Assembly: GCA_913056235.1 (NCBI GenBank)
Contig: CAJXMW010000003.1
Coordinates: 248,001 to 312,000, forward strand
Source: an uncultured Fodinibius sp.
GTDB lineage: Bacteria; Bacteroidota; Rhodothermia; Balneolales; Balneolaceae
DNA length: 64,000 bases
Direction: 5' to 3'
In this document: piece by piece, positions 3,110 to 61,726 of the stretch
Layout of the letters: each line of letters begins with the position of its first letter
Position numbering within the stretch: position 1 is the stretch's first letter
Notes under the pieces: model-generated
What the model was told of the DNA's origin: nothing
The model's input: the letters and a program-made list of their open reading frames with translations, nothing else
The model's database searches: none
Program-made: the position numbers and the translations under genes

Positions 3110-4252
3110 CTAAAACTCCCATTTATACGTCCTGTGAGTCTTGTGGTGATGGCATCCCAGCGCCTCCAGGCTACGCTGCATCAGCCAGTTACTCTCGCTT
3201 ACCCAAGCCCCTTCCAGATACTCCAATGATGGAGCAGCTTCCTTAGTGTACTGAATTCCTCGGGTAAAGGTAAGTGCCTCAAGTCCCATTTTTCGGAATT
3301 TTGGCCGGGTACCATACACCAGCGTACGCAGATGCTTGGCACGCCGCTTAAACCAAAACAGCTTCGGATAATGCCACCAGCGCAGACGACCGTCCGTTTC
3401 TTTGGAAACCTCATTTAAATCAGGCACACAAACAACAAACGAGGCAGGCTCACCATCTACAAATGCAATGAGCACACTATCGGGAATGAGCACCGGTTTC
3501 AGCTTCTCGACCGTCTCACGTACTGAGTCTTGCGTAAGCTCGGTAAATTCTTCTTCGCGATGTTCAATATCCTGATCTCTCCAAGCTTCGTTATAAATCT
3601 CCCGAATGTATTCTGCATCTTGATAGATGTTACTCTTATCCAGCGAACGCAGCGTCACGCTCGAACGGCTTTCGATACGGTCGGTAATTTTCTGCATGCG
3701 TTCGGGGATCGGCTGATCAAAATCACGCTTATAGCTCCAGTGGTCGTCGAGTTGTTCTGCGTCGGTCTGTTCCAGCAGGTCCTTGTAATACGGCGGATGA
3801 TAAAACATCCCATAAATCGGCGGTTCCTCGTAGTTCTCTACCAGTAATCCCCAGTAGGTATCATTTTCACCAAAATTAATAGGGCCCCGCATGGCATGGT
3901 AGTCACGCTCGCGATGCCAATCCTTGGCAAAATCAATGATCCCCTGTGCCAGTTCAGGATCGTTTTCCATTTCGATAAAACCGATACCTCCCATCGTCGG
4001 TTCCAATACCTTGTCACGATGCGGGGTGTTCATAACGGCAAAACGCCCCACCACCCGGCCATTTTTCCTCACTAGAAAACGCTCGCATTCTCCTTTGTTG
4101 AAAAAAGGATTCTCATCGGGATCAAAAATATTCTCGATCTCGAACCTGAACGGAGGAGACCAATGCGGATACTCTTCATAAATTCGAAATGGCAACTGGT
4201 GAAAAGCATCAACATCGCGGGGAGAATTGACCGAACTAAATGTAAAACCCAT
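3110..4252 (-). CDS. YghO/bCerS-like GNAT-fold acyltransferase, paralogue 1
   Basis: A 380-residue protein of the N-acyltransferase-like family typified by YghO. Features that I associate with the family are the early NPFFNKGE segment (about 48-55), the VVGRFAV strand, the GxxEMENDPE region, AKDWHRERDYHAMRGP, the PPYYKDL motif and a C-terminal SLEALGCHHHKTHRTYKW strand. The protein at 54296-55435 has the same length and the same order of motifs (NPFYENGD, ICGRIAA, PYYKDL, KTYRMYS), so the two are divergent paralogues. As I recall, the bacterial ceramide synthase bCerS belongs to this family, which would make acyl transfer to an amine a possible role. This copy has no lipid gene next to it. 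The substrate is unknown. Confidence 0.75.
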   Translation of the reverse strand: MGFTFSSVNSPRDVDAFHQLPFRIYEEYPHWSPPFRFEIENIFDPDENPFFNKGECERFLVRKNGRVVGRFAVMNTPHRDKVLEPTMGGIGFIEMENDPELAQGIIDFAKDWHRERDYHAMRGPINFGENDTYWGLLVENYEEPPIYGMFYHPPYYKDLLEQTDAEQLDDHWSYKRDFDQPIPERMQKITDRIESRSSVTLRSLDKSNIYQDAEYIREIYNEAWRDQDIEHREEEFTELTQDSVRETVEKLKPVLIPDSVLIAFVDGEPASFVVCVPDLNEVSKETDGRLRWWHYPKLFWFKRRAKHLRTLVYGTRPKFRKMGLEALTFTRGIQYTKEAAPSLEYLEGAWVSESNWLMQRSLEALGCHHHKTHRTYKWEF

Positions 4253-7058: not shown

Positions 7059-7889
7059 TTAATCGTATTCTTCATTTTCGTTCGGGAAGTCACCAGATTT
7101 TACATCTGAAATATATTGCTGAACCGCGTCCGTCATATCAGTATGCATATCGGCATATCGGCGAAGGAAACGGGGTTTAAATTCTTTATTTAATCCCAGC
7201 ATATCATGGCTCACAAGCACTTGTCCATCGCAGTTTGCCCCTGCTCCAATACCAATAGTGGGAATTGATAACTCATTAGTCACCCGCTGGGCCAGCTCCG
7301 CTGGAATCTTCTCCAGCACTATCGAAAAGCAACCCGCCTCTTCCAACCGTTTGGCATCCTCAATAAGTTGATCAGCCTCGGTATTTTCAGTTGCCCGTAC
7401 CTTGTAAGTACCAAATTTATAGATACTCTGCGGCGTAAGTCCCAAATGCCCCATCACCGGGATACCAGCCTCAACGATCTTGTTTACCGTTTTAACAACT
7501 GGCTTGCCGCCTTCCAGTTTTACGGCATGCGCACCGGCTTCTTTCATCATCCGTCCCGCATTGGTGAGCGCTTCAGTGGGCTTCACTTGATAACTCATAA
7601 ACGGAAGATCGGCAATGACTAAAGCTTTTTCGACGCCCCGTGCCACGCAAGAGGTGTGATAAATCATGTGATCCATCGTCATCGGTACCGTAGTGTCATG
7701 GCCAGCCATCACGTTACTGGCCGAATCACCCACCAGGATTACATCTATGCCCGCCTGATCCAGAATCTGCGCCATTGTATAGTCATAGGCGGTAAGCATG
7801 CTAATCTTGTCACCGCGCTCCTTCATCTCAACGAGAGTTTGCGTGGTTACCTTCTTGGGTCGGTTGTTAGAGTTTTTCTGTGTGCTCAT
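7059..7889 (-). CDS. panB: 3-methyl-2-oxobutanoate hydroxymethyltransferase
   Basis: PanB transfers a hydroxymethyl group from methylene-tetrahydrofolate to 2-oxoisovalerate, the first committed step to pantothenate. The 276-residue sequence has the metal-binding motif [19 protein letters not shown], the [10 protein letters not shown] loop and the [15 protein letters not shown] strand. Its start codon overlaps the fabZ stop by 4 bp, so translation is probably coupled. The window also holds the end of coaBC, the later CoA step. No panC or panD is present. Confidence 0.95.
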
Positions 7890-8332
7890 TCTTCCTCACT
7901 TGGTACTACTGCAGCTGAAGCTTCCAATTCACAAGCCACATCATCGCCAACTTTGGCTGTGCCCTCCATGGTATAAAAGTTTCGGCGTTGATTCACCAGT
8001 TTCACTTCCATGGTAAGCTGGTCGCCGGGTACTACCGATTTCCGAAACTTGGCCCTGTTGATGCCCGAAAAGACCATCAGCGATTCTGCCGGATTTTCAA
8101 TATGAGAATGCATCAACATAATCGCACCACTTTGCGCCATGGCTTCTACCTGCAAAACGCCGGGCATAATGGGACGCTCAGGGAAATGGCCATTAAAAAA
8201 CTCTTCATTCACACTCACATTCTTCACCGACAAGATGCGTCCCTCTTCTACTTCGAGCACGCGATCAACCAGCAAAAAAGGATAACGGTGGGGAATTAAC
8301 TTTTTAATGTCCTCAATCTTTAACTGATCCAT
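7886..8332 (-). CDS. fabZ: 3-hydroxyacyl-[acyl-carrier-protein] dehydratase FabZ
   Basis: A hot-dog fold dehydratase of 148 residues that removes water from beta-hydroxyacyl-ACP in fatty acid elongation. The start [14 protein letters not shown] and the active-site segment [20 protein letters not shown], with its catalytic His and Glu, are diagnostic. In many Gram-negative bacteria fabZ sits with lpx genes; here it overlaps panB and follows menG, so the usual context is missing. The pairing of a fatty acid enzyme with a CoA-precursor enzyme makes sense for acyl carrier supply (inference). Confidence 0.95.
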
Positions 8333-52749: not shown

Positions 52750-54144
52750 TTACTCCATAAAACCGCCTTTGGTCATCTTAATGGGATCCAGCGCCTCATC
52801 AAGCTCTTCGTCACTGAGATCAGTCATTTCACGAGCTACTTCCTTCACAGGCCGGCTCTCCTTAAATGCCTTCTTGGCAATTTCGGACGCTCGATCATAG
52901 CCAATGAGCGGATTCAACGCTGTTACTAGCACCGGATTCCGTCCCACCATCTCGGCCATTTGCTCTTTGTTAACATTAAGCCGGGATACCGATTTATCAG
53001 CAAAGTTTGCCACGGCATTACCCAGAATATTAATTGATTCAAGCAGATTGTGGGCTATAACAGGGAGCATCACATTGAGCTCAAAATTGCCAGACTGTCC
53101 CGCCACCGTGATGGCAGAATCATTTCCAATCACCTGTGCACATACCATCGTAACGGACTCCTCAATCACCGGATTAATCTTGCCGGGCATAATTGAGGAT
53201 CCCGGTTGCAAAGCTTCCAGCTTGATTTCACCGATTCCGCTGTTGGGGCCGGAGTTCATCCAGCGCAGATCATTGCCCATTTTCATGAGCCCAGTGGCAA
53301 TGGTTTTGAGCTGACCGCTCAGCTCCACCGGCGCATCTACCGTCGCTTGGGCCTCAAAATGGTTCTTGGCCTCTGTAAACTCATAACCAGTCTCATCCGA
53401 CAACGCTTCAGCCATCTTGGCTCCAAACTTGGGATTAGTATTCAATCCCGTACCCACAGCCGTACCACCCTGCGGCAGTTCTGTCATACGATCAAGCGCG
53501 GATTCCAGTCGTTCAACCCCCAGCTCAAGCTGTCGAGCATAGCCATCAAACTCTTGTTTTATCGTCACCGGCATCGCATCCATCAAGTGAGTGCGTCCTG
53601 TTTTCACTACATCGGCAAACTCTTCACCTTTTGTGATAAACGCTTTCTTTAGCTTTTCAAGAGCAGGCATCAAGTTTTCTTTTACACCCAGTACCGCCGC
53701 CACCCGGATGGAAGTTGGAATAACATCGTTGGAGCTCTGTCCATAATTGACGTGATCGTTGGGGTGAATTTTTGCTTCTACATCATCGGCCTTGAGCTCG
53801 TTAGCTCGTTTGGCAATAATCTCATTGGCATTCATATTGGTAGAAGTGCCCGAGCCGGTTTGGAAAATATCGATAGCAAAATCATCATCGAATTTGCCAT
53901 CGCTTACTTCCTGAGCCGCCTTTTGAATGGCATCGGTAATGCCTTCATCAAGTTCCCCGAGCTCGGCATTCACTTTGGCAGCATTTTTCTTAACCATTCC
54001 GAGCGCCTCGATAAATTCCCGGCTGAAACGAATGTCGCTCACGGGGAAATTATCAACCGCTCGCTGCGTCTGTGCACCGTAGTAAGCATCTTTTGGTACT
54101 TTAACATCTCCCATTGAATCCTTTTCAATACGGTATTCACTCAT
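52750..54144 (-). CDS. fumC: Class II fumarate hydratase
   Basis: FumC adds water to fumarate in the citric acid cycle. The ATG at 54144 (MSEYRIEKDSMGDVKV) is chosen over a TTG at 54168, which adds eight residues that do not fit the family. The product has 464 residues, the usual length. Key segments are QTGSGTSTNMNANE, the NYGQSSND loop, GRTHLMDAMPV and the signature GSSIMPGKINPV holding the catalytic Ser. It follows the E1 gene upstream on the same strand by 54 bp. No iron-sulfur cysteines are present, so it is not class I. Confidence 0.96.
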   Translation of the reverse strand: MSEYRIEKDSMGDVKVPKDAYYGAQTQRAVDNFPVSDIRFSREFIEALGMVKKNAAKVNAELGELDEGITDAIQKAAQEVSDGKFDDDFAIDIFQTGSGTSTNMNANEIIAKRANELKADDVEAKIHPNDHVNYGQSSNDVIPTSIRVAAVLGVKENLMPALEKLKKAFITKGEEFADVVKTGRTHLMDAMPVTIKQEFDGYARQLELGVERLESALDRMTELPQGGTAVGTGLNTNPKFGAKMAEALSDETGYEFTEAKNHFEAQATVDAPVELSGQLKTIATGLMKMGNDLRWMNSGPNSGIGEIKLEALQPGSSIMPGKINPVIEESVTMVCAQVIGNDSAITVAGQSGNFELNVMLPVIAHNLLESINILGNAVANFADKSVSRLNVNKEQMAEMVGRNPVLVTALNPLIGYDRASEIAKKAFKESRPVKEVAREMTDLSDEELDEALDPIKMTKGGFME

Positions 54145-54295
54145 AATGCATAAATGTTTTTGAGTCAAAAATTCCTTTCTGTGCCTTCAACAGTAAGGGC
54201 AGCACAGGCATTCAAAGGTAGGAAAATTTTAGGAATTTTCGGAGTTCGAAAAGAAGAGAAAATACAGACCCTCATACTGCCTGTAATCTACTGTT

Positions 54296-55435
54296 CTACA
54301 AATCCTTGCTATACATGCGATAGGTCTTCTCAACTTTGGCCCCAATTTTTTCAGCCACGCGAATCATCCCCTTGTTAGACTCCAGCACCCAACTTAACTC
54401 AGAGGATTTATATCCCACCTCCCTACCGTTGAGAATGGCCTCTTTGTGCAGTAGCGCATCAATACCTTTACCCTGGTATTTGGGGATGACTCCCATCAGA
54501 GCCGTTCGTATTTGGTTGATGTTACGTCGATGCCACAACAACTTAAAAATGCCGGTAGGAAACAAAGTGCCGTCCATGTGTTTCAGCGCCTGATTGAGAT
54601 CTGGAAGCGCGATGGAAAAAGCCACCGGTTCGCCATCAACTTCGGCAATGTGGGCTACTTTGGGATCGAGAATAAGTTTTAAGTCACTGGCTAAATCTTC
54701 CAGTTCACTCTTAGTGAGCGGAATAAATCCCCAGTTGCCCGACCACGCTTGATTAAAGACATTCCGAACGATTTCGACTTCGTTATCCAGATCCTTGGTA
54801 TCAACTTCGCGGATATTCAGCTTCGGAATACGACGACGCACAAGTTCCTCGGCACGATACATACGGTCGAGATTCACTGTCGATTGCGATACTCGAAAAG
54901 CATACAGATCCATGGCTTTGTTAAAGCCCGCATTTGAGACTAAATCTTTGTAGTAGGGCTTGTGGTACGGCATCATGATGCTAGGGTCATATTCAAAGCC
55001 ATCCACCAAAATGCCCACTTCGTCCATCATACTGGGATTGGAGGGGCCCATGATGTCGGTATGCCCTCGCTCGCGTAGCCAGTCGGCGGCCACTTTGAAT
55101 AACAAATTGGCAACCGATTGATCATTGATACACTCAAAAAATCCGAAAAAACCAGTTTTGTTATCGTGATGCTCGTTGTACCGCTGATCCTGAATAGCAG
55201 CAATACGACCACATATTTCGCCATTTTGCTCAGCTAAAAAGAGAGCGATATCACCATTTTCATAAAATGGATTACTATCCTTGTCGATGAGCTTCTTTTG
55301 CTCCATTTTAAGCGGAGCAATCCAATGCTCATCATCAGCATAGTGCTCATAGGGAAAGTTAATAAACTGTTTGCGCTCGCTTTTAGTAGTCGCTAACGTA
55401 ATACCGTTTATTTGCTGGGTCGTCGTATTGCTCAC
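54296..55435 (-). CDS. YghO/bCerS-like GNAT-fold acyltransferase, paralogue 2
   Basis: A 379-residue member of the same acyltransferase-like family as the gene at 3110. Family marks are SNPFYENGD (about 55), EICGRIAAIQ, GFFGFFECINDQSVANLLF, ADWLRERGHTDIMGPSNPSMMDE and PYHKPYYKDL. It lies 2 bp after the serine palmitoyltransferase gene, so the two are almost surely co-transcribed. As I recall, the bacterial ceramide synthase bCerS of Caulobacter is in this family. On that basis I propose that it N-acylates the sphingoid base made by its neighbour. The family name is from memory and the role is inferred. Confidence 0.78.
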   Translation of the reverse strand: MSNTTTQQINGITLATTKSERKQFINFPYEHYADDEHWIAPLKMEQKKLIDKDSNPFYENGDIALFLAEQNGEICGRIAAIQDQRYNEHHDNKTGFFGFFECINDQSVANLLFKVAADWLRERGHTDIMGPSNPSMMDEVGILVDGFEYDPSIMMPYHKPYYKDLVSNAGFNKAMDLYAFRVSQSTVNLDRMYRAEELVRRRIPKLNIREVDTKDLDNEVEIVRNVFNQAWSGNWGFIPLTKSELEDLASDLKLILDPKVAHIAEVDGEPVAFSIALPDLNQALKHMDGTLFPTGIFKLLWHRRNINQIRTALMGVIPKYQGKGIDALLHKEAILNGREVGYKSSELSWVLESNKGMIRVAEKIGAKVEKTYRMYSKDL

Positions 55436-55437
55436 TG

Positions 55438-56715
55438 TTATTCTTTTTCGAGAAGAGAATGGCCGTTTCGATCAATAATACCCTGCTCAATACCCACCTT
55501 GCGAAATGCTTCCAGAATACGATCCAGCTGATCATCGGTGTGAGTAGCCATGTAACTGGTACGAACAAGCGACTGGCCGCGAGGTACGCCGGGCGGCACA
55601 ACCGCATTTACATAAACACCCGCTTCGAAAAGGCCTTTCCAGAATTTGAAGCAATCCATCATTTCTCCAATTACAACCGGAATAATAGGTGTCTGACTGC
55701 TCCAAACATTGAAACCCATATCACGCAGGGATTCGCGCATGTAATTTGAGATTTCAGCCAAACGCTCCAACCTCCAGGTTTCATCCTTTAGGATTTCAAG
55801 TGCTTTAAGCACCGTTGCTACATTAGCAGGTGGCATAGAAGCACTAAAAATATGTGCCGGCGAATTGTGACGGATATATTCAATCACAGCCTGATCGCCT
55901 ACCAGAAATCCGCCCAATGAAGCAAATGACTTGGAAAACGTGCCACTAATCAGGTCTACTTCATCCATCAAGCCAAAAGTGGAAGCAGAACCACGGCCGC
56001 CGTCGCCAACCACTCCAATTGCATGCGCATCATCAAGATAGAGACGCGCGCCGTACTTTTCTTTTAGCTCAACAAGCTTAGGAACTTTGGCGATGGTTCC
56101 CGACATTGAGAAAACACCATCACTGACAATAATCTTGCCTTTCTCTTCATCAGCACGCTCCAGCAACATTTCGAGCTGCTCCATGTCGTTGTGCTGATAA
56201 CGCATAGTCTTTGCATTGGAAACGAGCGTACCGGTAACAATACATGCATGATTATCTTTGTCCGAAAAGATCACATCCTTGCGACCGGCAATAGTCTGGA
56301 TGGCTCCTTCATTCGTTTGATAGCCCGTACTAAATAGTACGCAAGCATCTTTATTCATGAAGTCAGCCAACTTCTCCTCCAGCTCGATATGCAAATCCAA
56401 CGTGCCGTTCAAATAGCGGGAGCCAGTACAACCGGTGCCATATAGTTTAAGTACATCCCGGGCCGCCTCAATCACTCGGGGATCATTAGTTAATCCCAGG
56501 TAATTATTAGACCCCGCCATAATTACTTCCCGGCCATCAATTTGCACGGTTGTTCCGTCTGTAGCCTGGAGTGGTTTAAAGTAAGGATAGAGCCCTTCAG
56601 ATTTTATTTCCTCGGCCTTTGTAAAGTCATATGCCTTGGCAAAAATATCGTTTGTTGTCGCTTCAGATTTCGAATCGGCCATTCGTCTTTTTTTCGGCTT
56701 TTGAAAAGTGCTCAT
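55438..56715 (-). CDS. spt: Serine palmitoyltransferase-like alpha-oxoamine synthase
   Basis: A PLP enzyme of 425 residues in the alpha-oxoamine synthase family (SPT, KBL, BioF, ALAS). PLP-site residues are visible: the His in DNHACIV (H156), DDAHAIG (about 229-235) and the Schiff-base Lys in SGTFSKSFASLGG (K262). The glycine-rich CTGSRYLNGTLDLH loop is typical. The TFSKSFAS pattern fits bacterial serine palmitoyltransferase, which joins serine and palmitoyl-CoA to make 3-ketodihydrosphingosine. KBL and BioF remain possible, but no threonine or biotin genes are near. A 20-residue basic N-terminus precedes the fold. Confidence 0.85.
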   Translation of the reverse strand: MSTFQKPKKRRMADSKSEATTNDIFAKAYDFTKAEEIKSEGLYPYFKPLQATDGTTVQIDGREVIMAGSNNYLGLTNDPRVIEAARDVLKLYGTGCTGSRYLNGTLDLHIELEEKLADFMNKDACVLFSTGYQTNEGAIQTIAGRKDVIFSDKDNHACIVTGTLVSNAKTMRYQHNDMEQLEMLLERADEEKGKIIVSDGVFSMSGTIAKVPKLVELKEKYGARLYLDDAHAIGVVGDGGRGSASTFGLMDEVDLISGTFSKSFASLGGFLVGDQAVIEYIRHNSPAHIFSASMPPANVATVLKALEILKDETWRLERLAEISNYMRESLRDMGFNVWSSQTPIIPVVIGEMMDCFKFWKGLFEAGVYVNAVVPPGVPRGQSLVRTSYMATHTDDQLDRILEAFRKVGIEQGIIDRNGHSLLEKE

Positions 56716-56769
56716 CGTCGTAAATATACTTCCATATTAAGCATCAATCAAATTATGTGTCAGATAATG

Positions 56770-57909
56770 TTATTTGCGATGGTTTAGTTCAGATTGGTCG
56801 ATTGTGGCTTGAAGAAAATCAATGTATTGCTGGGCCACATGCTTCCAGCTGAATTGTTCCAAAACATAATTACGCGTTTGCGCCGAAAAATGTTCCAATT
56901 TGTTCGAAAGTATTTCATGTACCTTCTCGGCAAACTGATTGGCATTCATACTGGGAACGCGATACCCATTTTTACCTTGGCTGATGACGTCCTTAATACC
57001 TTCGAGGTCGGCGGCCACAGCCGGAGTTCGTGCCATATTTGCTTCCAGCAGTACGATTCCAAACCCCTCCATATCGCCTTCAACGGGGATATTAGGCATC
57101 ACAAATAAATCGGCAGCCGCATAGGCCTGCTTGAGCACCTCATCAGGCTGTCGTCCGAGCAGAAAAATGCGATCGCTATAGGCAGATTCATCAACAGCTT
57201 GTTGGATACTCTCGAACTCCGGTCCATCACCCACGGTTACATATACAACTTCCTTGTCGATCTTGGGCATCACCTCTCGGATAAACCATTCGTGCCCTTT
57301 CCGCTTGACCTGGCGTCCCACCGTTAACAACATGAAATTGTGTTGCAGCGGAATGCGGAAATTTTGCTCCAGGCGATTACGTGCTTGTTGCTTGTCGGGA
57401 AAGTTGCTCAACCTCTCGAAGTCAAAACCGTTCGGCAACGCCACGCCTTTATCGGGATCCATACCTCGTTTAATGCACTCATCACGCGTAGCACGGGATA
57501 CTGATATTACACCATCCAGACTGGAAAATACTTTCGGCACAAACCACTGGTATATCTTAACCGGAAGTGTCACGTCCCTCCCGTGATTAATGGTGACCAT
57601 GGGCACATTAACCCGATTTCGGATAAAATAGGAAAGACTGGCCGACACCATGGAAGAGAATAGCACGACATCAGCCTGAGACTCTCGCACTTTATGAGGC
57701 AGGCGCATCAGCTGACGCAGCAAAAACCGTGTGGTTCGCAGGGCGATTTTTCCCTCACCGGAAACATTTATGGTTTCCGTAACTACTTCAACCGATTCTT
57801 TTCGCCTGAGTTCGCGGATAAGTTGCTGGCTGACCCGCTGCATCCCGCCTACATTATCGAGGATATCTCCGTCAGGAGGATGGGTATGTGAAACGTAAAG
57901 TATTCGCAC
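56770..57909 (-). CDS. GT4-family glycosyltransferase, copy 1
   Basis: A 379-residue GT-B fold glycosyltransferase of family GT4. It starts with GTG (MRILYVSHTHPP). The donor-binding half has VGRQVKRKGHEWFI, the EX7E-like EGFGIVLLEA and the GKNGYRVP end; VTINHGRDV lies in the acceptor half. No helix is seen, so it is a cytosolic or membrane-bound enzyme. It lies 54 bp before the SPT gene and 16 bp after the second GT4 gene, with all on the minus strand. Sugar transfer to a sphingolipid headgroup is one reading, but polysaccharide or other lipid substrates are possible. Confidence 0.87.
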   Translation of the reverse strand: MRILYVSHTHPPDGDILDNVGGMQRVSQQLIRELRRKESVEVVTETINVSGEGKIALRTTRFLLRQLMRLPHKVRESQADVVLFSSMVSASLSYFIRNRVNVPMVTINHGRDVTLPVKIYQWFVPKVFSSLDGVISVSRATRDECIKRGMDPDKGVALPNGFDFERLSNFPDKQQARNRLEQNFRIPLQHNFMLLTVGRQVKRKGHEWFIREVMPKIDKEVVYVTVGDGPEFESIQQAVDESAYSDRIFLLGRQPDEVLKQAYAAADLFVMPNIPVEGDMEGFGIVLLEANMARTPAVAADLEGIKDVISQGKNGYRVPSMNANQFAEKVHEILSNKLEHFSAQTRNYVLEQFSWKHVAQQYIDFLQATIDQSELNHRK

Positions 57910-57925
57910 TAGAAAATATTTTTAA

Positions 57926-59080
57926 CTAAAATTTTAGGGCAGGACGCGGTTCTTCCAACACTTCTCGATAATTTTCCAACAACTTGCCATTCACATTTTC
58001 CCAGGAATAAGCCATCGCTTTTTGACGAGCAGCTTTACTCATCGTATCTGCAAGCTCACCGTCTTCGGTTATATTAGAAACACGTTCCGCGAAGGTCCGG
58101 GTATCACGCGGTGGAGCCAAAAAACCATTAACACCAGATTCAACCAGCGACCGGCTGCCCGTTGCATCGGCCACCACGCACGGCAGTCCACTCGACATCG
58201 CCTCGAGGGTTACATTGCCAAATGTTTCTGTTTCTGATGGAAACAGGAAAACATCACTACTGGCATACGCCCGACTGAGCTCATCTCCCGTAATAAATCC
58301 GGTAAAGTGAGCCTCGGGCAACATATGCTCCAGCTCTTTCTTGGCCGGACCATCGCCCACAATCATCGCCCTTACATTCGAGTGATTTTGCTGTACTCTT
58401 TTAATCGTATCTACATAGGTCTGTAAATTTTTCTCCCACACCAATCGCGACACAAAAGTCACAACCTTGTCGGAGTCTTTAAATCCCACCGATCGCCGCC
58501 ACTCCATATCACGGTATTCCGGATTGAACTGATCGGTATCAACGCCACGCGCCCAAATGCGAACGCCTTCTTCGATACCCTCTTCATTAAGCTCATTGGC
58601 CATCGAGGGCGACGGCACATAAACATGCTTACACTGGCTATAAAACCACTCCAAATATTTCCAACCCAACATCTTGAGCATATCGAGATTGTAATACTTC
58701 AAGTAGCTGGTAAAGTGGGTGTGGTACGATCCCACGATCTGAATATTATTGGCTTGTGCCCAACGCATGGCACGGAATCCCAGTACATCAGGTGTAGCCA
58801 GATGGATAAGCGTGGGATTAAATTCACGGAGTCGATTTTGAGCTTTCTCGGGGAATCCGACAGTAATTCGGTATTCAGCACGGCCAGGTACCGGCACTGA
58901 AGGCACGGAAACGAATTCCCCCTCATGGTCGATCGCCGGCTCATCCACAGTGGGACCAAACACAATAACAGGCACTCCCTTTTCCTCGAGAAAAGCCACC
59001 AAGCGGTTGAGCGTCAACGACACACCGTCTTGGATATGATTATAATTTCCAGTGAAAATTGCTACACGAAGATCACTCAT
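57926..59080 (-). CDS. GT4-family glycosyltransferase, copy 2
   Basis: A 384-residue GT4 enzyme. Motifs are IFTGNYNHIQDGVSLTLNR at the N-terminus, GSYHTHFTSYLKYY in the acceptor region, FVSRLVWEKNLQTYV, and the donor loop FLFPSETETFGNVTLEAMSSG with the EX7E Glu pair. It is close to the lipid mannosyl/glucosyltransferase type (SqdX/MgtA/PimB-like), which act on diacylglycerol-like acceptors. This makes a lipid acceptor plausible. It is the first gene of the leftward run and is divergent from the SDR gene; the 102-bp gap between them must hold both promoters. Confidence 0.88.
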   Translation of the reverse strand: MSDLRVAIFTGNYNHIQDGVSLTLNRLVAFLEEKGVPVIVFGPTVDEPAIDHEGEFVSVPSVPVPGRAEYRITVGFPEKAQNRLREFNPTLIHLATPDVLGFRAMRWAQANNIQIVGSYHTHFTSYLKYYNLDMLKMLGWKYLEWFYSQCKHVYVPSPSMANELNEEGIEEGVRIWARGVDTDQFNPEYRDMEWRRSVGFKDSDKVVTFVSRLVWEKNLQTYVDTIKRVQQNHSNVRAMIVGDGPAKKELEHMLPEAHFTGFITGDELSRAYASSDVFLFPSETETFGNVTLEAMSSGLPCVVADATGSRSLVESGVNGFLAPPRDTRTFAERVSNITEDGELADTMSKAARQKAMAYSWENVNGKLLENYREVLEEPRPALKF

Positions 59081-59108
59081 AAATTTTCCAATACATCATT
59101 GAGATTTG

Positions 59109-59116
59109 TATCTTTA
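59109..59116 (+). promoter_or_regulatory. Candidate -7 box before the SDR gene (TATCTTTA)
   Basis: The octamer is a one-base variant of TAnnTTTG, 67 bp before the SDR start. It is within the divergent gap between the GT4 and SDR genes. No -33 element at the right distance is evident. Confidence 0.25.
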
Positions 59117-59182
59117 CTTCAGCTTAAACTTGAGATATTTTTAAAAATCACAGTTTAATTCAGCCCAAATATACAAATTTTG

Positions 59183-60157
59183 ATGAAAGCCTTCGTAACC
59201 GGCGGCACTGGTTTTATTGGAAGTCATCTTGTGGATCGTTTGCTGGAGATGGATATCTATGATGAGGTACGCTGCCTGATTCGCAACAATGAGAAATGGC
59301 TCAAAGGCAAACCGTTCACCCGGGTAAAAGGCAACCTGGACGACTTAACAGTGCTTAAAAAGGCTGTTCAGGATGTTGATGTCGTGTATCATATCGCGGG
59401 ACGCGTTAAAGCCCCCACCTACCAAGAGCTGGAGCATGCGAATGTGGATGCCACGGAGAACCTGCTGCGTATTGCTCAAAAGGAAGGCGTTTCCAAGGTT
59501 GTTGTGCTTTCGTCATTGGCGGCTGTTGGTCCCAGCGAAAACGGGCCCGTTGATGAAAAAACACCGATGAGTCCCATCAGCAACTATGGCAAATCTAAAA
59601 AGCAGATGGAGTCGGTAATCCATGACTTGGCTGATGGAGAGATGTCGATCACTATTCTACGTCCGCCGGCCGTGTATGGCCCACGCGAAGATCAGATTTA
59701 CAGCTTTTTTAAGATGGTAAATAATCGCATCTGTCCGATTATCGGCGATGGCGAACATCCCAAAATATCGATGGTGTATGTGGGGGATGTAGTCAACGGA
59801 ATCCTGAAAGCAGCTGAGCAAATAACCCCGGGCGTTCACACCTATTTTATTTCTGGGCAGGAAATTTATACCTGGAACCAAATCCGCGGAACTACCACTA
59901 AGATTCTGGGTAAAAAAGCCTTGCCCATTTACGTGAAACCAAAAATTGTGAAGTCCATTGCAGGCACAGTTGAAAAAGCTGCATCATTTTTTGGAGTTTA
60001 TCCCGTTTTAAACCGTGAAAAGGCAAAAGAATTAATCCTGGAATGGACGTGCTCGAACGATAAAGCTCGCGAAGAGCTTGGCTATACCCCGGAATATTCG
60101 CTGGGTGAAGGCATCTCACGTACTATCCACTGGTATCAAAGACATCATTGGTTATAA
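59183..60157 (+). CDS. Extended SDR (NAD-dependent epimerase/dehydratase), CerR-like candidate
   Basis: A 324-residue Rossmann-fold enzyme. The ATG at 59183 (MKAFVTGGTGFIGSHLV) is chosen over the TTG 3 bp upstream. It has the NAD(P) motif TGGTGFIG, the YHIAGRV strand, the Ser in VVLSSLAAVGP and the YGKSKKQME catalytic pair. Members of this group include sugar epimerases and lipid-linked ketone reductases. Caulobacter ceramide reductase is, as I recall, also of this group, and the position opposite the SPT/GT locus makes a role in reducing a 3-keto sphingoid group attractive (inference). Confidence 0.85.
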   Translation: MKAFVTGGTGFIGSHLVDRLLEMDIYDEVRCLIRNNEKWLKGKPFTRVKGNLDDLTVLKKAVQDVDVVYHIAGRVKAPTYQELEHANVDATENLLRIAQKEGVSKVVVLSSLAAVGPSENGPVDEKTPMSPISNYGKSKKQMESVIHDLADGEMSITILRPPAVYGPREDQIYSFFKMVNNRICPIIGDGEHPKISMVYVGDVVNGILKAAEQITPGVHTYFISGQEIYTWNQIRGTTTKILGKKALPIYVKPKIVKSIAGTVEKAASFFGVYPVLNREKAKELILEWTCSNDKAREELGYTPEYSLGEGISRTIHWYQRHHWL

Positions 60158-60160
60158 TTT

Positions 60161-61726
60161 ATGAAGAACATCTGGTCAGTTTTTTTCAGCACAATTATTA
60201 TTTGTATCAGCATTAGTGCCACGGCGCAACCTACTCTGGAGACCGATTACTCTTATGTAATGGAGATCCCGGAAGTCATTACAATGGACAGCTCTCCGGC
60301 CCATCTTTATGTACTATCTGACACCGAAGGGATGACGGTGTTCCGGGCCTATCCTGATTCGCTGCAGTGGCTATATTCGTCTACTGGTATGGAACAGCGC
60401 GGAAATACTGTCACGGCTGATATCCGGTTTGCCTATCTTTTTGGCAACAGCAGGCGACTTACTGTGCTAGAACCCACATCTGTGTTGGGCGTTTATTCTT
60501 CTACCCTGCTACCCGCTAACCCACGGGATGCCAAGCGTATCGATCAGAATTTATATGTAGCACTTGGTAACAAGGGCCTCGGCAAAATATCGCTGCGGAC
60601 ACCAGCTTCAGTCGATTCAACCATGGATTTTATTGAACGTTCGCGGCTAAGTAATGAGAATATCATTGATCTTGAGCAGTCTGGCGGGCAGCTTTTTGCG
60701 CTCTCATCCAGCCAAACACTCTTTCAATTTGAGTATGACGAGGGTAATTTGTCACTCTCTAAGGAACTGAATCTAGCTGAAAATTTGAACGGCATCTACC
60801 TGGTAAACAACACCCTATATGGGGCAGATCAAGAGGGTACCATTTACGAATTGGACAGCTTTGGTAAGCTCTCTGCACTGGGCACTATTGGCGAACCGGT
60901 TACCCAGATCGAAGCCTGGGAAAACTGGCTTGTTATCAAGGGTACATCCAACCGCCTTTGGACATCCTTTCAAAACCGACGGCCTGAACTCTGGAAAAAA
61001 GATCGTGATGCCGGCAACCATATCACGGTAACAAGTGGGGACCTGTGGCTTTGTACGTATGATAAAGTGAGTCGCATTATTAGCTCTGATACTTCGTCAC
61101 AGGAAGCTACTGCCAGCACAAATCCCAAGGGCGGGCAATCATTTAATGGCACACTTGCACTAAATACCATTGCTGATCAGGTTGTTCCCCACACGAAACC
61201 ACTGTTGATTCATATCCCGGTTAATAACGAAATTCCTGCAAACGCCGTGCAGTTTTCCTACCAGTCGGCAGATATAAAAAATGCTGAAATCCGTGGACGG
61301 AGCTTCTACTGGGCGCCTACTTCAAATGATGTAGGCAATCACCGCGTAAAACTAATTGCGACGACCAACAATGGCAAAACCGACAGCACGAGTTTCGCTG
61401 TTGAGGTTAAATCCTTTAATTCTCCTCCGCGATTTGCTCCCATCCGTCCTATCAGCATACCGGTGGGAGAAGAATTCTCGTTGCCGATTCAAGCCACTGA
61501 TCCGGATGGAATGGATAAGGAGTTAATTCGGTTTATGGGCGTCAATTTGCCTGAAGGTGCTTCTATCGACGAAAAGACGGGACAATTTACCTGGACGCCC
61601 AAAGCGCGCCAATCGGGAAAAAACCAATTCAGAATTATTGCCACCGACCAATATGGGGCAGCCAGTTCGGTGGATGTGACGATCAATGTTGTTGAAAACG
61701 TGCAACGCGGCAACTCCGGCAAATAA
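60161..61726 (+). CDS. Secreted protein with propeller-like part and Ig/cadherin-like domains
   Basis: I do not recognise a specific function. The 521-residue protein has a signal peptide (about 1-22, SISATAQP). The first 310 residues resemble a beta-propeller: repeated short strands with WLYSSTG, LYVALGNKGL and LYGADQEGTIYELD. The last 200 are two Ig/cadherin-like domains, with FYWAPTSNDVGNH and the PEGASIDEKTGQFTWTP signature of putative-Ig folds. It is 3 bp after the SDR gene, so it is likely in the same transcript. A surface role is likely. Confidence 0.75.
   Translation: MKNIWSVFFSTIIICISISATAQPTLETDYSYVMEIPEVITMDSSPAHLYVLSDTEGMTVFRAYPDSLQWLYSSTGMEQRGNTVTADIRFAYLFGNSRRLTVLEPTSVLGVYSSTLLPANPRDAKRIDQNLYVALGNKGLGKISLRTPASVDSTMDFIERSRLSNENIIDLEQSGGQLFALSSSQTLFQFEYDEGNLSLSKELNLAENLNGIYLVNNTLYGADQEGTIYELDSFGKLSALGTIGEPVTQIEAWENWLVIKGTSNRLWTSFQNRRPELWKKDRDAGNHITVTSGDLWLCTYDKVSRIISSDTSSQEATASTNPKGGQSFNGTLALNTIADQVVPHTKPLLIHIPVNNEIPANAVQFSYQSADIKNAEIRGRSFYWAPTSNDVGNHRVKLIATTNNGKTDSTSFAVEVKSFNSPPRFAPIRPISIPVGEEFSLPIQATDPDGMDKELIRFMGVNLPEGASIDEKTGQFTWTPKARQSGKNQFRIIATDQYGAASSVDVTINVVENVQRGNSGK

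Follow-up and report, generated by a model that had tools for sequence, protein, structure and literature searches.

A candidate glycosphingolipid locus in an uncultured Fodinibius species of the Balneolales

The window analysed here, a stretch of 64,000 nucleotides from an uncultured Fodinibius sp., contains genes of sphingolipid type adjoining genes for glycosyltransferases, which raises the question of whether they form one pathway to a glycosylated (dihydro)ceramide, as proposed in an earlier note on this DNA, or are mere neighbours. ORF calling on the window gave five ORFs spanning 54296-60157, among which Pfam recognized a GNAT, a class I/II aminotransferase fold, two GT4s and an epimerase-type SDR. 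Together with the adjoining features they are as follows.

54296-55435, minus strand: YghO/bCerS-like tandem-GNAT N-acyltransferase, predicted ceramide synthase (379 aa)
55438-56715, minus strand: SPT-type alpha-oxoamine synthase (425 aa; PLP lysine K262; Ala292)
56770-57909, minus strand: GTa, GT4 glycosyltransferase, predicted to add a second, variable sugar (379 aa; 17/20 order loci)
57926-59080, minus strand: GTb, GT4 glycosyltransferase, predicted first sugar transferase on ceramide (384 aa)
59081-59179, no strand: AT-rich intergenic region separating the divergent GTb and SDR genes (divergent order in 19/20 loci)
59180-60157, plus strand: epimerase-type extended SDR, predicted 3-keto-ceramide / 3-ketosphinganine reductase, CerR/Epi-like (325 aa)
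60161-61726, plus strand: Ig-like-domain protein with a signal-like N-terminus by inspection, 3 bp downstream of the SDR (19/20 loci)

Gene order and its conservation

The five ORFs, the gaps of 2 bp between the SPT and acyltransferase genes and of 54 bp between GTa and SPT, and the lysine K262, all described in the earlier note, were borne out by the ORF calls and alignment; GTb and GTa are separated by 16 bp, and the divergent starts of GTb and the SDR lie about 100 bp apart. The SDR starts with TTG at 59180, giving 325 aa, with an alternative ATG at 59183. A close SPT match was found in 36 of 37 relatives, the exception being a genome that is 86% complete (G013), and from these 36 we took 20 loci of the same order. 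The neighbourhood search across Balneolales that had been suggested revealed retention of the GTb-SPT-GNAT order in all 20 loci and of the divergent SDR in 19, the contig of the 20th ending before it reaches the SDR. Such retention indicates that the gene order is not due to chance.

A promoter region common to GTb and the SDR, as assumed in the earlier note, is plausible, but a sigma-70 pattern scan of 54100-60300 placed none of its 15 promoter-like sites (shuffle mean, 10.7; sd, 2.9) inside the divergent gap. The Ig-like-domain neighbour may be unrelated to the pathway.

Identity of the predicted ceramide enzymes

The protein of 55438-56715 is assigned by its sequence to the SPT family, with SPT activity predicted. 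This assignment, already made in the earlier note, is supported by a tree of 38 hand-chosen rows (including 8 of the 20 SPTs from the order loci and 17 of the 39 SPT-like loci from elsewhere), in which the protein clustered not with Kbl or BioF but with the S. multivorum and S. wittichii SPTs, in an SPT clade (31 rows; support 96/96) apart from Kbl, BioF and CFAT/SulA. By sequence, the closest solved structure is the Sphingobacterium multivorum SPT (PDB 3a2b, 8guh), with 417 bits for the closest PDB entry as compared with 293 for BioF/Kbl and 238 for cysteate acyltransferase; the catalytic residues are common to both SPTs, although the S. multivorum enzyme occupies another sub-clade of the tree. 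The PLP lysine K262 aligns with SulA K251, and the equivalents of SulA N53, H140, D217, H220, T248, K251 and R376 are all kept (N70, H156, D228, H231, T259, K262 and R385), but these residues do not single out SPT, because the Kbl, BioF and CFAT rows of the alignment have them too. At the position of SulA K281, which may tell SPT from SulA according to a portion of PMC9304779, Ala was found in 31/31 SPT-clade rows, Lys in 3/3 CFAT rows and Thr or Asn in 4/4 Kbl/BioF rows. SulA/CFAT (PDB 7u7h, 28eh) has the superfamily and PLP residues in common with the window SPT, whereas its diagnostic Lys is absent from the latter, which carries Ala292 there.

That the enzyme is a 2-amino-3-ketobutyrate CoA ligase or of BioF type, with an unrelated surface polysaccharide cluster as its neighbours, appears highly improbable. 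The Kbl and BioF models do score 394 and 387 bits, neither reaching its cut-off (460 and 426.45, respectively), but the 38-row tree and the residue test at K281 contradict such an identity, which was rejected on these grounds; moreover, the genome holds a separate BioF-like gene (411.6 bits for the matched piece; cut-off, 426.45), and the neighbours match YghO and the reductase of E. coli BL21. The highest score among 15 NCBIfam families was that of NF047600 (SerpalmtaseCFB, equivalog), whose cut-off of 640 is above the 504.8 bits obtained, so that the automatic name of a CFB SPT is not earned.

Sulfonolipids occur in Salinibacter, a related member of this class, which would favour a locus making a capnine-type sulfonolipid from cysteate instead of a ceramide from serine. 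The fold and chemistry common to SPT and SulA, as described in part of PMC9304779, point the same way, but the Ala at the K281 position and the placement of the window SPT outside the CFAT clade argue against it. Furthermore, a separate CFAT with the diagnostic Lys is encoded at G000:C1:817095-818276 (464.5 bits to 28eh), and another such separate CFAT was found in each of the 20 fetched genomes of the same genus or family, where the CFAT rows were hand-picked from the second matches of the relatives' SPT search. Because the residue at the K281 position is not that of a CFAT and the genome encodes a CFAT elsewhere, the sulfonolipid role of the locus was rejected, and we regard it as very unlikely. 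Also very unlikely is the use of alanine or another amino acid to give 1-deoxyceramides: Bacteroidota are said, in part of PMC11334938, to make these lipids, but sugars would usually attach at the C1 hydroxyl, and the operon contains two GTs.

The SPT, reductase and YghO of BL21 lie within one BL21 cluster, and one-way searches of the present genome with each of the three retrieved the window protein as the top match: the SPT with an E value of 1.3e-86 (runner-up, 2.1e-54), the acyltransferase with 1.3e-70 (runner-up, 5.2e-37) and the SDR with 4.5e-24 (runner-up, 1.7e-7). The acyltransferase, described as YghO-like in the earlier note, is indeed homologous to BL21 YghO over its full length with 35% identity (131/371), and equally 35% identical to the IS5-flanked YghO of K-12. 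The note's placement of bCerS in the YghO family agrees with the Figure 9 legend of PMC9386255, the part of that paper drawn on here, which names yghO as the counterpart of Caulobacter CC_1154. The predicted model (pLDDT 93.3) shows a tandem GNAT fold matching MAB_4324 (Z 25.8) and N-myristoyltransferases (Z about 16.5); no entry named bCerS was among the 50 fold matches listed, an absence that carries little weight. A phmmer search gave no convincing PDB relative (lowest E, 0.041), and neither this protein nor BL21 YghO has an NCBIfam family. The YghO-like family is not specific to ceramide, as the genome encodes two further YghO-like proteins. On this sequence evidence, the protein is supported as a predicted ceramide synthase of the YghO/bCerS type, for which N-acylation of a sphingoid base is predicted.

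The SDR, taken for a ceramide reductase in the earlier note, stands as a candidate through its match to the BL21 reductase, the identity being only 27%. Residues T7, G8, G11, G14, S112, Y136 and K140, which make up the Rossmann motif and Y-x3-K, are invariant in 21/21 sequences; the SDR of L032 was left out of alignment A3 for an internal stop. By inspection, the Rossmann motif begins near residue 6, too early for a usual signal peptide to precede it; Caulobacter CerR has been reported as periplasmic.

Glycosyltransferases and the proposed pathway

The association of these enzymes beyond the order was analyzed in 80 loci fetched with the acyltransferase as the sole query, divided by record title and similarity into 26 Balneolales-like and 54 other loci. 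SPT was present in 65 of the 80 (26/26 and 39/54, respectively) and adjoined the acyltransferase on the same strand in 64; only 3 of the 15 non-Balneolales loci without SPT were on pieces below 7 kb. The 26 Balneolales-like loci and the 20 order loci should not be summed, because four pairs with equal piece sizes and scores overlap between the two sets (L024/L043, L026/L064, L029/L066 and L034/L047). Alignment A4 covered 19 of the 26 Balneolales-like loci, and the GNAT alignment A5 covered 46 of the 80, L111 (internal stop) and L079 being left out. Loci titled Ignavibacteria, Zixibacteria, Gemmatimonadota and others resemble the window in having SPT, GNAT and SDR, as does an Aureispira plasmid, in which the SDR is divergent from SPT-GNAT; a Rubrobacter plasmid has the order SPT-GNAT-SDR. 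Of the 31 non-Balneolales loci holding both SPT and SDR, 26 have the SDR on the strand opposite to SPT, as in the window. They differ from the window in their glycosyltransferases, with no match to GTa or GTb in any of the 54, SPT-bearing or not. The remainder of the class, sampled in 20 loci, likewise gave no match to GTa or GTb, and the SDR does not adjoin SPT there, a single weak match apart.

Within the Balneolales, in contrast, GTb was found upstream of SPT and on its strand in 20/20 order loci, and likewise in each Balneolales-like locus with a contig extending that far (20 whole and 1 partial of 26). GTa was less constant, being replaced or missing in several relatives. Both are GT4 by Pfam, in keeping with a GT-B fold, and have no close characterised relative. 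In GTb, E285-x7-E293 is invariant in 20/20 aligned sequences, and the predicted model matches GT4 structures such as BshA (Z 36.9; rmsd 2.8; 351 aligned). To our knowledge, the acceptors of GT4 enzymes cannot be read from sequence.

We consider it probable that the genes of this locus form a glycosphingolipid pathway. Serine and a fatty acyl thioester would be condensed by SPT to 3-ketosphinganine, to whose amine the YghO/bCerS-like GNAT would attach a second acyl chain, and the divergent SDR would reduce the 3-keto group to give (dihydro)ceramide; GTb would then attach the first sugar at the C1 hydroxyl and, in most sampled Balneolales, GTa the second. The computed data above support the family to which the SPT is assigned, as well as the correspondence of the acyltransferase and the reductase to the E. 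coli BL21 / Caulobacter set. Which of acylation and reduction comes first, what donates the acyl group, which sugars are attached and whether the GTs accept ceramide are matters of inference; glycosylation of ceramide by GTa and GTb is thus presumed, as it was in the earlier note. Plain (dihydro)ceramide could be the product instead, if the GT4s were mere neighbours acting on another lipid such as diacylglycerol or phosphatidylglycerol. The nearest curated models of GTb in NCBIfam are in fact GlcNAc-phosphatidylglycerol synthase (176.5 bits; cut-off, 480) and monoglucosyl-diacylglycerol synthase (115.4 bits; cut-off, 400), and beyond the Balneolales the pair of SPT and GNAT, in many cases accompanied by the SDR, occurs without these GTs; the constant position of GTb upstream of SPT, described above, argues against this explanation, which seems to us rather unlikely.

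Lipid A genes and comparison with known systems

As regards LpxC, LpxB and Omp85, the genome fits a diderm without lipid A: neither LpxC nor LpxB was found in it, and the outer-membrane assembly protein Omp85 gave six matches. LpxC was found in 0/117 genomes of the class and SPT in 117/117, whereas LpxC is present in 89/118 genomes of the phylum sample, so that a loss of lipid A is possible, its place being taken by a glycosphingolipid and/or a sulfonolipid; the genome carries the separate cysteate acyltransferase gene in addition to the window SPT. The LptD model PF04453 had no match in this genome, but nothing can be drawn from it, since the Bacteroides control was silent as well. A sugar-bearing ceramide is most likely the product of the locus, and this lipid may form part of the cover of the outer membrane, given that no match to two key LPS genes was found in the genome. 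The single FabZ (window 7886-8332) is matched slightly better by the FabZ portion of the fused LpxC-FabZ model than by FabZ alone. A wider scenario, in which the whole class lost lipid A, the Balneolales glycosphingolipid became the outer-leaflet glycolipid, perhaps with a sulfonolipid, and this FabZ is the remnant of a lipid A gene, is possible but somewhat doubtful.

According to portions of PMC11087976 and PMC10331486, glycosphingolipids replace LPS in Sphingomonas, and the survival of Caulobacter without LPS is partly due to its sphingolipid. If the scenario is true, replacement of LPS by a glycosphingolipid would have arisen separately from Sphingomonas, at the class level. If LpxC is lacking and SPT kept throughout the class, the replacement could be tested in cultured members, for which the GTs at the locus would be direct knock-out targets. 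The titles and abstract openings listed from the open-licence literature gave no mention of sphingolipids or of missing LpxC in Balneolales. A single cluster that unites ceramide synthesis, acyltransferase and reductase with glycosyltransferases would run contrary to the pattern in the phylum survey, in part of which the three ceramide genes are described as not closely spaced in sphingolipid-producing members (PMC11334938); names in Balneol- or Rhodotherm- are absent from its main text.

Among known systems, the spt, acpR, epi, aasR and aca/yghO genes of E. coli BL21(DE3) / Caulobacter are matched here in the SPT, the YghO-type acyltransferase and the epimerase-type reductase, the acyltransferase and reductase having been compared with Caulobacter through the E. 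coli BL21 proteins. The present locus differs from that set in its divergent reductase and in having two GT4s instead of the ACP and acyl-ACP synthetase genes, which Rhodobacteria need and which none of the ORFs at the locus represents. The GTs adjoin SPT, whereas Sgt1 and Sgt2 of Caulobacter (ccna_00793 and ccna_00792) lie far by locus number from spt, which we take to be ccna_01220. By their description in part of PMC6445935, Sgt1 and Sgt2 are nevertheless two GT4s acting sequentially on ceramide, the scheme proposed for the window. The alpha-galactosylceramide synthase BF9343_3149 of Bacteroides fragilis, as described in part of PMC9692976, is a retaining GT4 acting on ceramide.

Gene order and identity of the predicted serine palmitoyltransferase

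The five ORFs from which the earlier note had proposed a glycosphingolipid locus were all recovered by ORF calling with the spacings it described, in a source genome of 3.97 Mb that is 98.4% complete, and are arranged as follows.

54296-55435, minus strand: GNAT acyltransferase (ORF call, Pfam GNAT)
55438-56715, minus strand: serine palmitoyltransferase-type protein, SPT (ORF call, Pfam class I/II aminotransferase fold)
56770-57909 and 57926-59080, just upstream of SPT on the same strand: GTa and GTb (Pfam, two GT4s)
59180-60157, plus strand: SDR (ORF call, Pfam epimerase-type SDR)

SPT and the GNAT acyltransferase are separated by 2 bp, and the divergent SDR begins some 100 bp away from GTb. 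For the window SPT, the CFB serine palmitoyltransferase model ranked top in NCBIfam with 504.8 bits, its cut-off of 640 not being reached, and among solved structures the S. multivorum SPT scored best (417 bits, versus 293 for BioF/Kbl and 238 for cysteate acyltransferase). A 38-row maximum-likelihood tree, rooted at the midpoint only and with long Kbl and BioF branches, places the protein inside a 31-row group (96/96) with the SPTs of S. multivorum, S. wittichii, and E. coli BL21, and Kbl, BioF, and the cysteate acyltransferase of the sulfonolipid route (CFAT/SulA) fall outside. The tree thus agrees with the previous assignment as SPT rather than Kbl or BioF, and the alignment likewise identifies K262 as the PLP lysine, as had been noted. 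At the position of Lys281 in SulA, where SPT carries Ala according to PMC9304779, Ala is found in the window SPT and 31/31 group rows, Lys in 3/3 CFAT rows, and Thr or Asn in 4/4 Kbl/BioF rows.

A role of this gene in sulfonolipid condensation was rejected, because the same genome encodes elsewhere a separate CFAT with the diagnostic Lys (G000:C1:817095-818276, or L136:8093-9334 in the fetched locus), whose matched piece scores 464.5 bits to PDB 28eh, as well as a BioF-like protein, whose matched piece reaches 411.6 bits (cut-off, 426.45). With this CFAT, the window's genome is probably able to produce sulfonolipids as well. In 20/20 same-genus or same-family genomes, taken from 37 relatives with one chosen match each, the match was likewise a CFAT bearing the Lys motif.

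Acyltransferase and predicted reductase

The GNAT acyltransferase shows 35% identity to YghO of both E. coli K-12 (132/372) and BL21 (131/371), the latter being the better reference because an IS5 copy overlaps the K-12 gene. PMC9386255 lists yghO (ECD_02850) as corresponding to Caulobacter CC_1154, which belongs to a set of five genes required for dihydroceramide; in the BL21 record, yghO, acyl-AMP ligase, epimerase-type SDR, ACP, and spt adjoin one another. The structure model (pLDDT 93.3, 47 sequences) best fits tandem GNAT proteins (7q3a; Z 25.8, rmsd 3.4, 305 aligned), with N-myristoyltransferases ranking lower (Z about 16.5). This predicted fold fits an N-acyltransferase, though it does not in itself prove ceramide as the product. 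Two further YghO-like GNAT proteins occur in the genome, at window 3110-4252 (minus strand; 31% identity to the locus GNAT) and at G000:C5:151944-153065, one of which might be a sulfonolipid N-acyltransferase.

When BL21 YghO, reductase, and SPT were used as queries against the window's own genome in a one-way best-hit test, each found its best match at the locus described here (E 1.3e-70, 4.5e-24, and 1.3e-86; second best, 5.2e-37, 1.7e-7, and 2.1e-54, respectively). The SDR of the locus shares 27% identity with the BL21 reductase, and 32% and 39% with SPT-adjacent SDRs on a Rubrobacter and an Aureispira plasmid, respectively. On the plasmid of the actinomycete Rubrobacter radiotolerans, an SPT-GNAT-SDR trio (L039:7971-11338) stands ahead of a gene of the LTA synthase family. 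The window locus most likely encodes a ceramide pathway.

Conservation of the locus and its glycosyltransferases

A close SPT match (at least 73% identity) was found in 37 of 38 genomes, the window's own included and one gene split over two contigs counted; the sole exception, G013 (same family, 86% complete), has a CFAT (L190), and its missing SPT reflects either incompleteness or real loss. Among 20 Balneolales loci fetched from 36 relatives, the order GTb-SPT-GNAT is kept in all 20, GTa is present in 17, and the divergent SDR in 19 (that of L032 with an in-frame stop within the stretch taken), the 20th contig being only 4458 bp long. An Ig-domain protein (60161-61726, plus strand), 3 bp past the SDR, is also kept in 19/20 order loci and diverges faster (37–66% identity).

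A public genome collection was scanned with the acyltransferase alone, and the best 80 of 556 loci were sorted by record title and similarity into 26 Balneolales-like and 54 others. SPT was present in 26/26 and 39/54 of these, adjoining GNAT on the same strand in 26/26 and 38/54, and the SDR in 20/26 and 32/54, respectively; neither GTa nor GTb was matched at E 1e-5 in any of the 54. In 20 of the 60 genomes labelled as class outside order, SPT was present in all; GNAT lay next to it in 17 and at a distance of about 6 kb in one, a weak SDR match was seen in one, and GTa/GTb in none. Thus, SPT and GNAT form a widespread pair, in many cases accompanied by an SDR, and the presence of the two glycosyltransferases at the locus is, among the loci sampled, a trait of Balneolales.

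GTb is the constant member of this pair. GTa is absent, with a GTb-SPT gap of less than 400 bp, from L033, L035, L053, L055, L062, and L065, and L057 has a 968-bp gap with no long ORF. In L025 and L069, a GT4-like ORF distinct from GTa (about 390 aa; 25–26% to GTb) sits in its place between GTb and SPT, suggesting sugar variation between lineages. The pattern fits roles in which GTb would put on the first sugar and GTa a second that varies. Glycosylation of ceramide at the locus is likely, though not proven.

Lipid A genes and comparison with known systems

Possible loss of lipid A was gauged by LpxC over the class and by LpxB in one genome. Neither LpxB nor LpxC was matched in the window's own genome, with E. 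coli, Caulobacter, and Bacteroides controls positive for both, and six Omp85 matches there lead us to expect an outer membrane. LpxC was found in 0/117 class genomes, each at least 90% complete, and an SPT match with E no higher than 1e-130 in 117/117 class genomes drawn. In the phylum draw, LpxC was present in 89/118 genomes, all outside the class; the other 29 lacked a match, and each of the 20 listed among these belongs to the class. The window carries a FabZ gene as follows.

7886-8332, minus strand: single FabZ (model scores)

It scores 181.5 bits against the FabZ model (cut-off of 113 reached) and slightly higher, 188 bits, against the FabZ half (positions 321-462) of the bifunctional LpxC-FabZ model, whose cut-off of 465 is not reached; this small gap could also be explained by the lineages behind the models. 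Because no LpxC-like ORF adjoins it, the next upstream ORF being a methyltransferase by inspection, and LpxC open frames in other Bacteroidota of the phylum draw (463–608 codons) fit a fused gene, the sequence suggests that the LpxC half may have been lost with FabZ remaining.

We further infer that glycosphingolipids may stand in place of LPS, since within a single class LpxC went undetected and SPT was universal, a pattern that counts as about one event since the class shares one ancestry. Bacteroides has both LPS and sphingolipids, and sulfonolipids may have filled the role of LPS instead or in addition. Replacement by glycosphingolipids is made reasonable by reports that glycosphingolipids replace LPS in Sphingomonas (PMC11087976) and that Caulobacter without LPS depends on a sphingolipid (PMC10331486).
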